From positions 1-21,198 of IMG/VR virus record IMGVR_UViG_3300034378_000209: DNA of 21,198 bases. One strand, written 5' to 3'. Made by a program: the position numbers and the translations under genes. Position 1 is the first letter of the stretch. Each line of letters opens with the position of its first letter. Source of the DNA: a virus. Of the stretch, positions 2 through 17,829 are shown one piece after another. The notes under the pieces were generated by a model. That model ran no database searches. It had not been told where the DNA came from and was given only the letters and a program-made list of their open reading frames with translations.

Positions 2-157
2 AACCGGACTGCCAAGCATGAAATTCTGCATTTGTTACTAGCTAAACTATCTGACGCTGGCAGGTTACGCTATGTTATCGAGAAAGAGATCAACAGGGCG
101 GAGGAGGAGCTTGTTAGGGTATTGCTCAGAGTCGTCAAGTCAACGACTCCCCGCTAA
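2..157 (+). CDS. 3' end of an unknown phage gene, tail rewritten by IS insertion
   Basis: An open frame enters from the left window edge and ends at TAA 155-157. About 45 native residues are visible; they are rich in Glu, Arg and Leu (for example KLSDAGRLRYVIEKEINRAE) and look helical, perhaps coiled coil. The tnpB element starts at about 139, so the final residues STTPR and the stop lie in element DNA. Joining 138 to 1413, the inferred pre-insertion sequence, gives ...RVVK followed by TGA. The insertion therefore adds only five residues. I do not recognise the family, and the N-terminus is outside the window. Confidence 0.6.
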   Translation, partial: NRTAKHEILHLLLAKLSDAGRLRYVIEKEINRAEEELVRVLLRVVKSTTPR

Positions 158-270
158 AGCAGGGAGCTTGCAGTTACGCTCCACCGCAGCTCACCGCAAG
201 CAATAGTTGCTTGGGTGATTTGGCTTCAACACGTACAGCGTATGGCAAGTTGACGATTGCCCTGCCTCGG
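119..270 (-). ncRNA. Probable omega-RNA region (tnpB 3' end + right end + guide)
   Basis: In characterised tnpB elements the guide RNA scaffold is the 3' end of tnpB plus the right end, and the guide is the flanking DNA. Here the tnpB tail, the hairpin at 151-166 (CTCCCTGCTTTAGCGGGGAG on the minus strand) and GTTGAC at 139 would form the scaffold. Minus-strand TTGACGACTCTGAGCAATAC would be the guide. The 5' limit is a guess. The block GGTGGAGCGTAACTGCAAGC recurs identically in the fossil copy at 3754-3773, supporting constraint on this RNA-forming segment. Confidence 0.45.
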
Positions 271-1298
271 ATGTTCAAGGCAGCGTTGTAGTCTGCGTTA
301 GCGGAGAATCCGCAGGACTTACAGGAGAAAGTAGATTGGTCAGGACGGTTAGATTTGGACACATGTCCGCAATTGGAGCATTCTTGGGAGGTGTAATGCG
401 GGTCTACGAAGACGATAGGTACACCGGCGAGTTTAGCTTTGTAGACGATTTTGCTTTGCAAGTCGTAGAAGCTCCAGGAGTGTTGAGTTCTCCGCTGGCT
501 TTTTCTAACTCTTATCCTCTTGCGGATGCCTCTGAGGTCTTCGAGGGCAATACCGGAAGAGGTGCGTTTGCCTTTCTCAACGAGATTCTTCGAGATGACG
601 TGGTTGACGTCGTTTCTGAAACGAGATTCCTTTCGCTTGCGTTTCCTCAGCAGGCGTTTAGCAGACTTTGTGTCTTTGGCTTGCAGTCTGCTTGTAAGTT
701 TACTATGTCTGTTTCTCAGATTATTGATGTGGCTGCCGGAGAAGCTTTCGCCGTTGCTGTCGGTCGCAATATTGACAATGCCCAGGTCGATACCGAGATA
801 GTCTTCAGGTTCACTTTCGGGAGGCTCAGGTACGTCAACGCAGATGTAAAACCAGAACTGACCATCTCGGTATACGAGGTCGGCTTGACCCCTAACACGC
901 TTCAGGTCTACCTGCCTGTAATTGTAAAAGACGAAAGGTATGTCGATCCTATCTTCAAGCGTCTTGATGTTGATCTTATCGGCTTGCTTGAACTTCCAGA
1001 GCCGGTGGTCATAGACTATCGCACCGTGTTCTTTGAATCGGTGATGCTTCTTTTTGTCGCGCTTATATGCTTCTTTTACCTTGCCGATAGCGCGGACGGC
1101 AAGCTGCGCAGTAAGACCGAATTTCGCCCTGATGTGGTAGTAGCAGAGACCGTGCAGAATTATCTGGCTGTAAGTCTTCTGCTTGTACGCCACGTCAGAG
1201 ACGTAATTGCAGGCAGCGTTGAAAGCTTCCATAGTCTCCAGAAGCTTTTGCTCCTGCTGTTGGGTTGTGTGGAGTTTCAATTTCATAGTCAGTATCAT
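174..1298 (-). CDS. tnpB: TnpB, RNA-guided RuvC-like nuclease (OrfB family)
   Basis: Full-length TnpB of about 374 aa when started at ATG 1298 (MILTMKLKL, like the usual MILTYK-type N-terminus); ATG 1286 is an alternative. TnpB is the ancestor of Cas12 and cuts DNA beside a target-adjacent motif, guided by an RNA from the element's own 3' end. The RuvC acidic residues are visible: Asp in LGIDLG (about residue 171), Glu in ALEDLRG (about 253) and Asp in ADYNAALN (about 336). A four-Cys zinc finger (CSNC...CKSC) lies between the last two. An HTH-like N-terminus and a basic middle (KRKRKESRF) fit the family. The protein ends NLPYAVRVEAKSP...CGGA, and homologous sequence recurs at 3673-3800. The gene looks intact. 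The long open frame on the opposite strand is its shadow. Confidence 0.93.
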   Translation of the reverse strand: MILTMKLKLHTTQQQEQKLLETMEAFNAACNYVSDVAYKQKTYSQIILHGLCYYHIRAKFGLTAQLAVRAIGKVKEAYKRDKKKHHRFKEHGAIVYDHRLWKFKQADKINIKTLEDRIDIPFVFYNYRQVDLKRVRGQADLVYRDGQFWFYICVDVPEPPESEPEDYLGIDLGIVNIATDSNGESFSGSHINNLRNRHSKLTSRLQAKDTKSAKRLLRKRKRKESRFRNDVNHVISKNLVEKGKRTSSGIALEDLRGIRKRIRVRKSQRRTQHSWSFYDLQSKIVYKAKLAGVPIVFVDPHYTSQECSNCGHVSKSNRPDQSTFSCKSCGFSANADYNAALNIRGRAIVNLPYAVRVEAKSPKQLLLAVSCGGA

Positions 1299-1307
1299 AA
1301 TGCTAAT

Positions 1308-1337
1308 ATTGTAGGATATTATCAATGCTTTTGTCAA
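1308..1337 (-). promoter_or_regulatory. Sigma70-type promoter of tnpB
   Basis: On the minus strand TTGACA (1332-1337) and TACAAT (1308-1313) are separated by 18 bp. The predicted start of transcription is near 1300, so the tnpB mRNA would have almost no leader, and no Shine-Dalgarno is visible before ATG 1298 or 1286. Confidence 0.6.
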
Positions 1338-1363
1338 GCGTTAAATTGCGCTTAACAAGGAGG

Positions 1364-1405
1364 GCGGCATTCCTCCCCCGGATAAATCCGGGGGTCTCCT
1401 GCCGC
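1364..1405 (-). repeat. Left-end subterminal hairpin of the tnpB element
   Basis: Outer arms GCGGCA and TGCCGC enclose an inner perfect stem CCCCCGGAT/ATCCGGGGG. The same architecture occurs in the left end at 14161-14200. Such hairpins are what the Y1 transposase recognises in IS200/IS605 elements. Confidence 0.65.
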
Positions 1406-1467
1406 ATTTTCTATGATGATTAGCACGAGATTGCTCGTTGGGCATCACTTGCCGGAAGGGGTGACTT

Positions 1468-3672: not shown

Positions 3673-3800
3673 TCTTAAACGCGGCAGGAGACCCCGATGT
3701 CAACCAGCCGTACGCGATGCGTGTTGAAGTCAAAGCGCCTATTGGTGAATTGCGGTGGAGCGTAACTGCAAGCCCCTTTCGTCAGGGAGGGGTAGTTGAC
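3673..3800 (+). pseudogene. Fossil tnpB 3' end with right end (solo omega-RNA-like segment)
   Basis: Translated sequence VNQPYAMRVEVKAP matches the C-terminus of the window's TnpB (VNLPYAVRVEAKSP). The following GGTGGAGCGTAACTGCAAGC is identical to the region spanning that gene's stop, and the right end again closes with a hairpin and GTTGAC (3795-3800). The frame is shifted before the stop, so an ORF starting at ATG 3606 (fair ribosome binding site, 82 aa) runs through it to 3854; its first 22 residues are not TnpB-like. No matching left end is visible upstream. This is a decayed element in + orientation; its flank TTTTTGAATATATCCTTTTG would occupy the guide position. Confidence 0.75.
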
Positions 3801-3822: not shown

Positions 3823-3851
3823 TTGACAAAAGCCCACCCGCAAGGTATACT
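3823..3851 (+). promoter_or_regulatory. Sigma70-type promoter before the parB-like gene
   Basis: TTGACA (3823-3828), 17-bp spacer, TATACT (3846-3851). It lies 23 bp downstream of the fossil right end and has a spacer start nearly identical to that of the promoter at 2143. The transcript would have a leader of about 95 nt. Confidence 0.7.
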
Positions 3852-5603: not shown

Positions 5604-5912
5604 ATGTTGACTAAAAAACCGCTAGTAAAACAAATAAGCTTTGAGATTGACGGTAACTTTTCCGACCCTGTATCCGTCTGGCAGAAGTTTCTGGAGGCGC
5701 TAAATGTTGTAAAAGGCATCACGATCCTGGCGACGCTGAAGCACGATTTCCCCGGCGGCGGCGTGTCCGGGATTGTGATCATAGGCGAAAGCCATGCGGC
5801 TATACATACATGGCCGGAGAAGAATCGGGCGTGGGTAGAACTTGTCACCTGCGGCGACCCTGCCAGCTTGACAAGTTTTCGTTATAGAATAACGGATTTA
5901 TTCAAACTTTAA
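5604..5912 (+). CDS. SpeD-like pyruvoyl-dependent decarboxylase
   Basis: 102 aa. The core GGGVSGIVIIGESHAAIHTW followed by PE and VTCGD is the S-adenosylmethionine decarboxylase (SpeD) signature. Aligned without gaps to the Thermotoga maritima enzyme as I remember it, the self-cleaving Ser63 (pyruvoyl source), His68, Cys83, Ser55 and the adenine-stacking Phe49 all coincide. The family makes decarboxylated SAM for spermidine synthesis; some homologues have changed to Arg or Orn decarboxylases, so the substrate is open. The protein is about 20-30 residues shorter than usual at the C-terminus and lacks the GRHL N-terminal motif. No Shine-Dalgarno precedes ATG 5604. It sits between the methyltransferase and the small terminase. 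No spermidine synthase is visible. Confidence 0.87.
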   Translation: MLTKKPLVKQISFEIDGNFSDPVSVWQKFLEALNVVKGITILATLKHDFPGGGVSGIVIIGESHAAIHTWPEKNRAWVELVTCGDPASLTSFRYRITDLFKL

Positions 5913-11866: not shown

Positions 11867-12988
11867 ATGGGCAACGTAAGCGATATTGAAGGCAAAGATA
11901 TTCCTATCAAAGCTTTTGCGGAAAAAAGGAAGCTTTGGCGCAACTTGACAATTTACGAAGAAGCATGCAAAATTGACTTTGTAGAGTTAGAAAGCCGGTT
12001 TGAAGGGCACGTGCAAGCTACTACCGATAGGTTAGCAAGAGCGGTCAAAGATATTCAGGAGTCGATAATCTCTCAAGTCGGGCGGCTGAAAATACTTGAG
12101 ACTGGCAACATGAAGCTGATCAGAGATGTCGTAATTGCGCCTAAAAAGCTGTCAGATGGCGTCAAACATGTGAAGAATATTTGCTTGAATTCCTTCGGCT
12201 ATGTCTACCTTGAAGGCAGAAGCGATGCGCTAATAGAGGTAGAAAACTCTTTTGGCAAAAGTATCAAGTTTGGCGAAGATTCCGGCCCGTTTGCATTCGT
12301 CCTGCGCGAGCAGGGATGGGACATCGAAAATGGTTACGAACGCAACAGGGCGCATTTTGCCGACATAGCCGACTTGACACCTGCTGAGGCGCTAAAAAAG
12401 TTCAAACGCAAAGTGCCTATGACCAAACGCCAATATTCGCAGTTGCTCGATATGGCTAAAGGCAGAGCGTTCACTGTCGCTGGCATAATCGAGAAAGACA
12501 TCTTGAGGACGATACAAGATCTGCTTTATAAGGGCATAAGGGAAGGCGCGTCAATTAAGGATTTTGCCTTTGCGCTCAGGCAGGCTAATATCGAGTATAC
12601 GGGTACTGTCTATGGCACTGATAAGAAGAAAGGCGAGCCAATATCGCCAGTGCATACGGAAACCATTTTGCGGACGAATTTTGCGAGCGTATATAGCGAC
12701 GGCCGGTGGGATTTGTTTAACGACCCTGCGGTTGTAAGTTTCGTGCCAGCTTATCAGTATAGCGCCATACTCGATACGAGGACGCGCGAGACGCACCGCA
12801 GGATGGATGAGCGCGTTTACCTGAGAGACGACCCTATCTGGTACAAATGGCGCCCACCTGCTGGATATAATTGTAGATGTATACTCACGCCTGTCACCGT
12901 GAATATGGACTTTTCAGTATCGCGACCGACGGCTTTGAAACCCGACCCCGGCTTCGGGGCGCTTATCGAAGCGAGAGTGCCTAGGTGA
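11867..12988 (+). CDS. MuF (gp30-like) head morphogenesis / minor capsid protein
   Basis: 373 aa from ATG 11867 after AGAGGGGA. The C-terminal third is a clear Phage_Mu_F domain: HTETILRTNFASVYSDGRWD, YQYSAILDTRTRETHRRMDE, VYLRDDPIWYKWRPPAGYNC and RCILTPVT. It ends shortly after the domain, so no toxin or other effector is fused. The N-terminal half is helical. MuF proteins associate with the portal and are needed for head assembly in SPP1 and Mu. The stop TGA 12986-12988 lies inside a 61-bp mobile micro-element; without it the reading would be the same residues V-P-R then TAA. Confidence 0.9.
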   Translation: MGNVSDIEGKDIPIKAFAEKRKLWRNLTIYEEACKIDFVELESRFEGHVQATTDRLARAVKDIQESIISQVGRLKILETGNMKLIRDVVIAPKKLSDGVKHVKNICLNSFGYVYLEGRSDALIEVENSFGKSIKFGEDSGPFAFVLREQGWDIENGYERNRAHFADIADLTPAEALKKFKRKVPMTKRQYSQLLDMAKGRAFTVAGIIEKDILRTIQDLLYKGIREGASIKDFAFALRQANIEYTGTVYGTDKKKGEPISPVHTETILRTNFASVYSDGRWDLFNDPAVVSFVPAYQYSAILDTRTRETHRRMDERVYLRDDPIWYKWRPPAGYNCRCILTPVTVNMDFSVSRPTALKPDPGFGALIEARVPR

Positions 12989-13045
12989 ACTACCCCCGCT
13001 TAAAAGCGGGAGCTTCCGGCTTCGTCGTTTTCTGCCGCGTCTTCT
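12985..13045 (-). mobile_element. 61-bp micro-element (left and right ends only)
   Basis: On the minus strand it reads AGAAGACGCGGCAGAAAA joined directly to a 43-nt right end with hairpin CCCGCTT/AAGCGGG and GTTCAC. The first part is identical to the left tip and the second differs by one base from the right tip of the 338-bp element at 14152-14489, so it looks like an internal deletion derivative. Flank TTTAT next to the left tip is shared by both copies. Confidence 0.75.
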
Positions 13046-13065
13046 ATAAAAAAGGGGGATTTATA

Positions 13066-13506
13066 ATGCAACTTGCGACACGCGATTCCAACCCAATTCG
13101 CTTAGCGAGAGCGCAGGTTACGGGTCAGGATGCGGGCAATACTGCGAATTTTACTATCACACGAGATGTTGATAGTGTACCAATTCCGCGCAGGATACGC
13201 ATCCTATACCTGACTGTGCAATCCAGCCAGGCGAATACTTACATATTGCGCATCTACACGAGGTCAACGCGGGTGCTAACGCCCGGCCAGTCCAATTACT
13301 CGTTGCTCTGGGAAAGGGTGATCACCAACAGCGGCGAGCTGCACATATTTGTCGATGAAATTACCTATCTGGACGAAGAAGCTGCTGCAAATAATTACGA
13401 CCCAGCGGAGACGAATAACGAGTATCGGGCGACTATATACTTACAAATCGTCAGCAGCAGCGGCGCTAATGCCGATTACGACGTATGCCTCGGCTATGTT
13501 CAGTAA
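13066..13506 (+). CDS. Hypothetical phage structural protein
   Basis: 146 aa from ATG 13066 after AAAGGGGGAT. A longer frame reaching back to 12985 only translates the micro-element and is rejected. The protein is beta-rich (RRIRILYLTVQSSQANTYIL, then LHIFVDEITYLDEE and ATIYLQIVSS), suggesting a sandwich fold such as a decoration or tail-attachment protein. No family recognised; placed between the MuF gene and the endolysin gene. Confidence 0.7.
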   Translation: MQLATRDSNPIRLARAQVTGQDAGNTANFTITRDVDSVPIPRRIRILYLTVQSSQANTYILRIYTRSTRVLTPGQSNYSLLWERVITNSGELHIFVDEITYLDEEAAANNYDPAETNNEYRATIYLQIVSSSGANADYDVCLGYVQ

Positions 13507-14122: not shown

Positions 14123-14151
14123 AATCGCCATTGCCGCACGTAGCTCTTTAT

Positions 14152-14489
14152 AGAAGACGCGGCAGAAAACTCCCTGCTTTAGCGGGGAGATGAATGCCGC
14201 CCCCTTTCTTTGGTTGACATATTACAACGACTGTGCTATAATTTGCTACGTAATCGAAAACCAAGATTACATTCGCTCTTTGACAATTGGTATGAGGTTG
14301 TGACAAGTCAATGGTTGTCACGTAAAACCAATTCCTAAGTTGTGTACTTTTGGCTGTGTTCAGTACGCGTAATAAAGAAAACATAGTGTAGTAGGGCAGG
14401 TACTGCCCGAATTGACGCCGGTGGAGAACGGTAGAAGTAGTACCCTCGACGAAGCCGGAAGCTCCCGCTTTTAAACGGGGGTAGTTCAC
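14152..14489 (+). mobile_element. 338-bp non-autonomous tnpB-type element
   Basis: The left end AGAAGACGCGGCAG, next to flank TTTAT, leads into a hairpin with inner stem CTCCC/GGGAG and outer arms CGGCA/TGCCG, like the intact tnpB element's left end. A consensus promoter follows. The 3' part translates as TPVENGRSSTLDEAGSSRF then TAA, the kind of C-terminal tail found on IS1341-type TnpB proteins. The element closes with hairpin CCCG/CGGG and GTTCAC at 14489. No protein-coding capacity remains. The 61-bp copy at 12985 shares both tips. Confidence 0.75.
14214..14242 (+). promoter_or_regulatory. Consensus sigma70 promoter inside the 338-bp element
   Basis: TTGACA (14214-14219), exactly 17 bp, TATAAT (14237-14242): a perfect match to both consensus hexamers at optimal spacing. 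It occupies the place of the tnpB promoter in the intact element and would start RNA near 14249. Confidence 0.85.
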
Positions 14490-14510
14490 ATATTGAGCTT
14501 TTGTACTTTT
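14249..14510 (+). ncRNA. Candidate standalone omega-RNA-like transcript
   Basis: Between the promoter and right end there is no ORF but several stems: GTGACAA/TTGTCAC nested inside TTGGT/ACCAA (about 14289-14332), GGGCAG/CTGCCC (about 14394-14408), and the right-end hairpin. The last 70 nt derive from a tnpB 3' end, the part that forms omega-RNA scaffolds. The 20 nt after the right end, ATATTGAGCTTTTGTACTTT, would be the guide. Ends are estimates. Confidence 0.5.
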
Positions 14511-14554
14511 GTCTTGAAAGGGCAAGTTGAGGTTGTCCTCTATTCTAGATCTTA

Positions 14555-14596
14555 CCGATATAAATCCTCAGAGAAGTAAGTCTACCCGATATAAAT
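14555..14596 (+). repeat. Direct repeat CCGATATAAAT
   Basis: The 11-mer occurs at 14555-14565 and 14586-14596, 31 bp apart (about three helical turns), in the leader before the capsid assembly genes. This spacing would suit a protein binding one face of the DNA; function unknown. Confidence 0.4.
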
Positions 14597-14622
14597 AGCG
14601 ATAACAACTGAATACAGGAGCT

Positions 14623-14664
14623 TTACGCCTGCTGCGTAACGCAGTAAGCGTAATTTGCGTTTTT
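14623..14664 (+). terminator. Hairpin with T-run before capsid assembly genes (possible attenuator)
   Basis: Outer arms TTACGC (14623-14628) and GCGTAA (14648-14653) with inner arms CTGCG and CGCAG, then TTTGCGTTTTT. The T-run is interrupted and the gene at 14678 begins 14 bp later, so it may attenuate rather than end transcription coming from the upstream element promoter. Confidence 0.4.
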
Positions 14665-14677
14665 CGGGGGTGATTCT

Positions 14678-15085
14678 ATGCCATACCCTAATGAACACGC
14701 AGCCAGAATACGCAGTGTAGGCGACTTTTCTAAAGTCTTTCGCAGAACTAAGGGCGGCAGGATATACGGCAGGATCAAAGTGCCCGCCTCTATCGGCATT
14801 ATCTGGGGTAAGCTGAAGGGTAGAGATAAGCCGACGGATATGCCAATACCGCAAGCGTTACGATTCGATAAGAAAGTCTGGACGGTGGCTGGTGCGAAGA
14901 AATGGCTGAAAGATCACAATATCAAATATAAACGATTTGAACCTGCTAAGAAGACAGCGAAAGCAGGCGCCGACGAAGAGGATACATTGGAGCTATATAA
15001 AGATGAGCAAGGCATTAACCTTGAAAAACTTGTGCTAACGATCAATGGCAGCCGGTTAGCGATCCTGCCAGATGGGGAGGGATAA
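14678..15085 (+). CDS. Conserved phage protein with PYPNEHAAR motif (prohead-protease-associated)
   Basis: 135 aa from ATG 14678 after CGGGGGTGAT. The start MPYPNEHAARIRSVGDFSKV followed by FRR and later IIWGKLKGRDK resembles a domain often joined to or encoded beside phage capsid maturation proteases. The middle (VWTVAGAKKWLKDHNIKYKR FEP) fits the usual 'W-A..W...H' ending of this domain. The C-terminal 40 residues are acidic. It lies 3 bp before the protease/scaffold gene and probably acts in prohead assembly; a catalytic role is not evident. Confidence 0.6.
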   Translation: MPYPNEHAARIRSVGDFSKVFRRTKGGRIYGRIKVPASIGIIWGKLKGRDKPTDMPIPQALRFDKKVWTVAGAKKWLKDHNIKYKRFEPAKKTAKAGADEEDTLELYKDEQGINLEKLVLTINGSRLAILPDGEG

Positions 15086-16785: not shown

Positions 16786-17229
16786 ATGCCCGAAAGCACA
16801 GGCAAGCCAGACCGGTCGTATAGGGCGGGGGAGGATCTTTCATCCTCTCAATATAGGGTAGTGGTCTTTAGCACTACTACTGATGACGATGTTACTCTCC
16901 CCGGCGCTAGAGGTGCTGGCAGAATTGCTGGCATACTTCAGGACAAGCCCGAAAATAACGTGGCGGCTTCGGTGCGATTCGAGGGCGTCTCGTGGGTTAA
17001 GCTGGCGAAAGCAGTTACGGCTGGTGACGCGTTGATGGTAGCCGCTGCCACAGGCACGGTCGAGAGGCAGAATGGTTCTAGCGCAATGGTTGGCATCGCC
17101 CTTGAGACGGGTGTTGCTAACGAGCTAATTGAATGTTACGTTCAGATCATACCATACAATCAACTGGCAAGTAGCAGCTCGTCAAGCAGTTCTTCATCCT
17201 CTAGCTCATCCTCATCTTCAAGCGCCTAG
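16786..17229 (+). CDS. DUF2190-like capsid decoration protein with 18-Ser tail
   Basis: 147 aa from ATG 16786 after GGGAGGTGAC. The repeated beta pattern (VVVFSTTTDDDVTLPG, RIAGILQDKPENN, VSWVKLAKAVTAGDALMVAA, MVGIALETGVANELIECYVQ) is that of DUF2190/gp35-like proteins that sit on the capsid surface. It ends with 18 consecutive Ser (17170-17223) encoded by mixed AGY and TCN codons, then Ala. A paralogue follows at 17314. The tails would project from the capsid in hundreds of copies. Confidence 0.75.
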   Translation: MPESTGKPDRSYRAGEDLSSSQYRVVVFSTTTDDDVTLPGARGAGRIAGILQDKPENNVAASVRFEGVSWVKLAKAVTAGDALMVAAATGTVERQNGSSAMVGIALETGVANELIECYVQIIPYNQLASSSSSSSSSSSSSSSSSSA

Positions 17230-17313
17230 AAAAAAAATAGCGCCTGAAGTGATGATAGGCAACAGGGTATAACTTTATAAACCATAAGAGCGTAGAAGCG
17301 AGGAGGGATCGAG

Positions 17314-17829
17314 ATGCCTGAAGCGACAGGAAAACCCGACAGATCCTACCGAGCGGGTGAAGATCTGTCCAGTTCGATATATAGGATCGTTGTATTCAAC
17401 ACAACGACTGACGACGATGTGGAGCTGCCCTCGGCGGCTGCTGCTCAGCGGATTGCAGGTATACTACAAAATAAGCCTGAGAATAACGAGGCTGCTAGTG
17501 TGAGGTTTGAAGGTGTATCGTGGGTTAAGCTTGCGAGCGCTGTCAGTGCCGGTGACGCCCTACAGGTTGCCGATGCGACTGGCGCTGCGATGAAGCAGAA
17601 CAATTACCACGATATGGTAGGAATTGCGCTGGAAACAGGGGTTGCGAATGAGATTATCGAATGCTATGTCCAAATAGTACCGATGGCGCAGCTTTATAGC
17701 TCAAGTTCCTCGTCCTCATCGTCTTCGTCCTCATCTTCCAGCAGTTCGTCAAGTTCGTCATCCTCATCTTCCAGCAGCTCGTCAAGTAGCTCATCCTCAT
17801 CCAGCAGTTCGTCAAGTTCTTCTGGATAA
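17314..17829 (+). CDS. Paralogous DUF2190-like decoration protein with 42-Ser tail
   Basis: 171 aa from ATG 17314 after GAGGAGGGAT. The body is closely similar to that of the preceding gene (shared GKPDRSYRAGEDLSSS, VVVF/IVVF, RIAGILQ.KPENN, VRFEGVSWVKLA, MVGIALETGVANE.IECYVQI), so the pair arose by tandem duplication. It ends with 42 Ser and one Gly. Body differences lie mainly in surface-type residues. It immediately precedes the major capsid gene. Confidence 0.75.
   Translation: MPEATGKPDRSYRAGEDLSSSIYRIVVFNTTTDDDVELPSAAAAQRIAGILQNKPENNEAASVRFEGVSWVKLASAVSAGDALQVADATGAAMKQNNYHDMVGIALETGVANEIIECYVQIVPMAQLYSSSSSSSSSSSSSSSSSSSSSSSSSSSSSSSSSSSSSSSSSSG
17698..17823 (+). repeat. Poly-serine coding tract, 42 codons
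   Basis: The tract uses six Ser codons in irregular order with imperfect copies of a unit of roughly 30 bp (TCATCTTCCAGCAG-type followed by TCGTCAAG). Both the mixed codons and imperfect unit suggest growth by duplication followed by selection to keep Ser. Confidence 0.8.

Follow-up and report, generated by a model that had tools for sequence, protein, structure and literature searches.

The window, i.e. the whole 21,198-bp stretch of phage DNA that was analysed, carries Mu-like genes for the head (terminase, Mu-type portal, Mu F, amidase and Mu I-like protease) together with the element of interest, designated element 4, and three further IS605-type elements, two of which lack tnpB. Other genes in the window include an S-adenosylmethionine decarboxylase at 5604-5912 (Pfam AdoMet_dc, 4e-16), which is an unusual auxiliary gene for a phage, and two tandem, similar proteins at 16786-17829 with a weak match to phage cement proteins and long poly-serine tails. 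Just upstream of the head genes, at 14550-14596, two 16-nt direct repeats (TCTTACCGATATAAAT and TCTACCCGATATAAAT) lie 31 bp apart and are perhaps a late-gene control site. The transposon-related features are as follows.

139-1412, minus strand: element 1, tnpB-bearing, of the other omega-RNA type, 3' of ATCAT
174-1337, minus strand: tnpB of element 1, 387 aa, with apparent RuvC residues D184, E266 and D349 present
3674-3800, plus strand: element 2, a 127-bp tnpB-less relative of element 1
12985-13045, minus strand: element 3, a 61-bp ends-only relative of element 4, 3' of TTTAT
14147-14151, plus strand: TTTAT, a target- or TAM-like pentamer abutting the 5' end of element 4
14152-14489, plus strand: element 4, tnpB-less, IS200/IS605-type, 338 bp, delimited by end homology
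14159-14200, plus strand: left-end hairpin, outer stem GCGGCA...TGCCGC, inner stem CTCCC...GGGAG
14214-14242, plus strand: promoter TTGACA-17-TATAAT with a TG extended -10, a 12/12 sigma-70 match
14249-14387, plus strand: leader without an ORF and without a Pfam match
14388-14489, plus strand: omega-RNA (reRNA) 3' scaffold, 102 nt, 79.8 bits with covariance model R1 (E = 2e-18)
14394-14408, plus strand: scaffold hairpin GGGCAG-GTA-CTGCCC, a covarying helix with double changes in four of six pairs among relatives
14409-14411, plus strand: GAA, pairing with UUC at 14485-14487 as a pseudoknot (90.5% of cells paired in relatives)
14418-14458, plus strand: stem 2, CCGGU (14418-14422) with GCCGG (14454-14458)
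14461-14481, plus strand: right-end hairpin from the R1 alignment, with one mismatch (C14468/A14475)
14490-14505, plus strand: predicted 16-nt guide AUAUUGAGCUUUUGUA, consisting of flanking phage DNA and placed by analogy with ISDra2 (PMC10097598)

The first letters of element 4, AGAAGACGCGGCAG, begin at 14152 immediately 3' of TTTAT, which would correspond to the left cleavage site and TAM position of IS605-type elements. A start of the form AGAA...GCGGCAG, or a near variant, is common to element 4, element 1 and Anaerolineae elements encoding TnpA/TnpB, and in most cases the Anaerolineae IS605 elements have CCAT or ATCAT ahead of the AGAA or its near variant. The left end of element 4 is 81% identical over 59 nt to that of the Anaerolineae loci L049 and L196 and 80% identical over 51 nt to that of locus L207, in which such a left end is followed by a Y1-type TnpA-like protein, named by eye rather than by a family search, and then by TnpB. 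The right end, GTTCAC with its last base at 14489, is the same terminus as that of TnpB loci L202, L204 and L206, and all of its relatives were TnpB loci. Because the left start and the right GTTCAC are both set by homology, the length is exactly 338 bp, in agreement with an earlier note on this DNA, which had described an element of this size retaining both ends. These ends are near-terminal palindromes (the left and right hairpins) rather than terminal inverted repeats, reading AGAA... and ...TTCAC, and the element is too short for a transposase. The same note had reported no ORF, which holds for the plus strand, where none of at least 60 aa occurs within the element; a 125-aa minus-strand ORF (14148-14525) spans it and is mechanical only. 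Element 4 is thus very probably a non-autonomous IS200/IS605-type transposon resembling the palindrome-associated transposable elements (PATEs).

The promoter is the sole perfect 12/12 match in the whole window, with 0.009 expected, so the ideal promoter that had been noted earlier was recovered without a second candidate. An RNA start is predicted at approximately 14249 from the promoter position, and transcription of element 4 is likely given the presence of this consensus promoter. No terminator-like site occurs on the plus strand from the promoter to the following gene (14242 to 14678), and read-through into the downstream structural and head genes is possible. Within the leader, a possible remnant of a tnpB N-terminus (TFGCV...) at approximately 14346-14375 was a single weak match that did not reach significance and to which Pfam gave no support, and it was set aside. 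A candidate hairpin at 14285-14333 was no better than shuffles, and a 16-nt repeat shared by the element and the guide region (14340-14355 and 14499-14514) did not show a TAM-plus-seed arrangement and is likely due to chance.

The scaffold occupies the last 102 nt of the element. Covariance model R1 was built from 14 TnpB-locus sequences, with element 4 left out, collected mainly by searching 199 Bacillota genomes with the L202 TnpB (tblastn) and reading off the 3' ends. Element 4 aligned to the model over its full length (positions 1-111 of 111), and the next matches in the window were elements 3, 1 and 2 (E 3e-4, 0.015 and 0.044), which have right-end features in common; all E-values obtained with R1 depend on a short calibration. 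The modelled structure, comprising the first hairpin, the GAA/UUC pairing, stem 2 and the right-end hairpin, was paired in 88.7% of cells in the relatives, and this fraction dropped to 39-52% when the structure was slid along the alignment. Double changes were present in 11 of 21 pairs, and the total of 42 double-change cells was reached by none of 500 shuffles. The third pair of stem 2 is G-C in element 4 and U-A in all 14 relatives, i.e. a compensatory change. Positions 14390-14427 matched the 3' ends of TnpB loci at 87-92% over 36-38 nt, in Chloracidobacterium (L197 and L200) and in the viral contig L202. Both the retained tnpB 3' tail and the omega-RNA-like transcript region proposed in the earlier note were recovered. 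An interpretation of the tail as coding sequence (LPELTPVE) was abandoned, since it is the RNA that is conserved. The overall fold energy is ordinary (z -1.35 against shuffles), so the case rests on homology and covariation rather than stability. Rfam, at gathering and permissive thresholds, gave nothing relevant. TnpB omega-RNAs are encoded at the 3' end of tnpB, and since element 4 contains no tnpB, its RNA is here called omega-RNA-like, a scaffold without its gene.

The scaffold is also in register with the cryo-EM structure of the ISDra2 omega-RNA, in which the stretch from -5U to -3C is base-paired to -103A to -105G and that from -35 to -32 to -81 to -84, the latter flanked by the non-canonical -36G and -31A (PMC10097598). 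With C14489 taken as -1, the 3' end of element 4 reads G UUC A from -6 to -2 and positions -36 to -31 read G CCGG A, so that the G/UUC/A end, the GAA partner and the G-CCGG-A of stem 2 fall in the same register; the partner strand, G CCGG U (14417-14422), has flanks matching ISDra2 -85G and -80U. The right-end hairpin is likewise shared, and the RNA of element 4 would also end in flanking sequence as its guide. In contrast to the ISDra2 type, the scaffold of element 4 is not overlapped by tnpB, has its own promoter approximately 146 nt upstream, and places the first hairpin before the GAA rather than around it. The other omega-RNA type of the window, represented by elements 1 and 2, has CAA/UUG instead of GAA/UUC, and relatives have GTAAAC with GTTTAC, a further covariation of that pairing.

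The four elements fall into two families, and both families have deletion derivatives within this single phage contig. The TnpB of element 1 has Pfam matches to Cas12f1-like_TNB (4e-24) and OrfB_IS605 (5e-13), appears intact from its sequence, and has best identities of 56% in genomes (Alicyclobacillus, L036) and 58% in viral contigs. Element 2 retains the tnpB 3' tail and right end and is possibly a second guide for the phage TnpB, but its stem 1 is truncated, the 5' strand being gone, and it has no internal promoter. It lies 2.3 kb from element 1, and an 11/12 promoter is found just downstream at 3823. Element 3, composed of 18 nt of left end and 43 nt of right end, is 96% identical to element 4 across one stretch of 46 nt and 100% identical across another of 24 nt. 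It overlaps the Mu F-like gene at its stop codon. The mechanical ORF 12985-13506 starts inside element 3, and the gene of that ORF therefore more likely begins at the ATG near 13066.

No TnpB or TnpA matching element 4 was found in the 21-kb record, which may itself be a fragment, and as the phage TnpB (174-1337) goes with the other scaffold type, any matching TnpB would presumably be encoded elsewhere. The suggestion in the earlier note of a standalone guide RNA gene is borne out for the transposon ends, scaffold, promoter and loss of tnpB; a working guide gene, or the captured regulatory RNA that the note gave as an alternative, is a more tentative proposal. No copy of element 4 was found outside the window by DNA similarity in phages and plasmids or by exact patterns in IMG/VR and genome contigs. 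The scaffold pattern was absent from the Bacillota, Negativicutes and Anaerolineae searched, and element 4-like DNA in Chloroflexota was limited to left ends. Protease-scaffold and amidase proteins identified no near phage relatives, the joined flanks of element 4 gave nothing convincing against phages, and neither approach (protein relatives or joined flanks) yielded an empty insertion site in a related phage.

As a TnpB-less omega-RNA element, element 4 is not unique. A haloarchaeal plasmid of Salinigranum marinum carries a TnpB-less omega-RNA scaffold (L203:1802-1938, E 1e-13), with no transposase annotated in its incomplete gene table and, among the ORFs examined upstream, none resembling TnpB. 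Each of the 14 Geobacillus genomes searched contained a tnpB-less element of approximately 245 bp (e.g. L083:8706-8942); individual genomes had between 1 and 23 matches at E <= 1e-10, many of which were partial. This Geobacillus element shares with element 4 the IS605-like ends, an omega-RNA-like scaffold and a T-rich 5' flank, most of the copies examined beginning after a T-rich stretch that reads TTTAA and nearly all of them having different flanking sequence as a potential guide; unlike element 4, it is multi-copy, scores lower with R1 (approximately 23 bits) and lacks a perfect promoter. The earlier note had pointed to decay of the stems in homologous copies as a check, which was run on this analogous family. 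Across 27 distinct copies the stems were 89-94% paired and the right-end hairpin 60% (with pairs set by hand), but double changes did not exceed those in shuffles. The lack of a covariation excess argues neither for nor against selection on the RNA and is what mere drift of the copies once inserted would produce.

PATEs arising by deletion of the core have been described in Haloquadratum (PMC3119063), and a 271-nt PATE-like IS605 sequence in Halanaerobium keeps a complete right end along with 58 nt of tnpB (PMC7290912). These elements resemble element 4 in having palindromic ends, in being too short for a transposase, in keeping a 3' tnpB remnant with the right end and in presumably being mobilised in trans; element 4 differs in its phage location, consensus promoter and covariance-model-supported scaffold. 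Neither paper is known to have tested a guide function of the RNA.

The proposed scheme combines transcription, TnpB action in trans, empty-site cleavage and TnpA mobilisation, all inferred from the arrangement of sequence features. Internal loss of tnpB would have produced element 4 while keeping TnpA-recognisable ends, the promoter and a complete omega-RNA scaffold. An RNA initiated at approximately 14249 would run through the scaffold and end with a guide of ~16 nt taken from the adjoining phage DNA, and a matching TnpB, encoded by the host or on another element, would bind this RNA in trans and cut sites consisting of TTTAT followed by the guide (ATATTGAGCTTTTGTA) at which no insertion is present. 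The element's own locus would be spared under the TAM rule, because the guide-matching DNA at 14490 follows GTTCAC rather than TTTAT, and TnpA acting in trans would mobilise the element. IscB-type omega-RNAs located away from their gene have also been reported. A non-autonomous element with an apparently intact, promoter-driven omega-RNA that would plausibly serve a TnpB in trans is favoured as the overall explanation, with a probability of about two in three. Counting against it are the absence of a matching TnpB or TnpA from the record, the failure to find a homologous copy elsewhere, the mismatch in the right-end hairpin, the ordinary fold energy and the lack of a covariation excess in Geobacillus. 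The narrower proposition that a TnpB actually uses this RNA in trans is more tentative and would fall somewhat short of even odds.

The main rival is an inert remnant, i.e. a dead deletion derivative in which the deletion is recent enough to have left the scaffold intact while the RNA goes unused. This is a serious contender, if a little under an even chance: element 4 has no tnpB and the record no matching TnpB, elements 2 and 3 are accumulated deletion derivatives in the same contig, the Geobacillus copies lack a covariation excess, and the formation of PATEs by core deletion is well known, as set out in the account of PMC3119063. Retention of a perfect promoter and a full-length scaffold speaks against it, as does the compensatory change in stem 2, although the latter may predate the loss of tnpB. 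An effect of the IS-borne promoter in raising expression of the downstream head genes would fit the orientation of the 12/12 promoter towards the genes from 14678 on and the terminator-free interval between them, but it may be a side effect and leaves the scaffold unexplained, and as an account of the element it appears improbable.

A nuclease-dead TnpB (TldR-like) of host or phage could use the element 4 RNA to repress a gene, and prophage-borne TldR-guide pairs do exist, with frameshifted tldR loci proposed to provide guides in trans (PMC13418256); those RNAs resemble that of element 4 as phage-borne, TnpB-type guides. However, they adjoin tldR, whereas no TldR gene is near element 4, and the window's single tnpB-like gene lies at a distance of 13 kb, goes with the other scaffold type and has its RuvC residues present. 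The transposon ends are moreover intact and the guide is merely flanking phage DNA, making a regulatory RNA highly improbable. A decoy that acts like an RNA anti-CRISPR and occupies the TnpB of the host might be supposed, since the phage carries a guide scaffold under a consensus promoter but no effector to match; as nothing points to restriction of this phage by TnpB, and the transposon ends and element 3 favour a mobile passenger, this too has very little probability. The wider idea that a dedicated, promoter-driven standalone phage omega-RNA takes over host TnpB, whether by guiding or by occupying it, is doubtful; on that view, a TnpB system would be a single protein gene served by many scattered guide transposons that encode no protein.

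If protein-less elements such as element 4 do guide TnpB in trans, as the favoured explanation holds, a single TnpB would defend many non-autonomous transposons. TnpB is the ancestor of the Cas12 gene-cutting enzymes, and TnpB nucleases would in that case work with multiple guides while lacking a CRISPR array. Because its strains are cultivable and nearly every copy examined has a different guide, the Geobacillus family makes the trans-guide idea testable.
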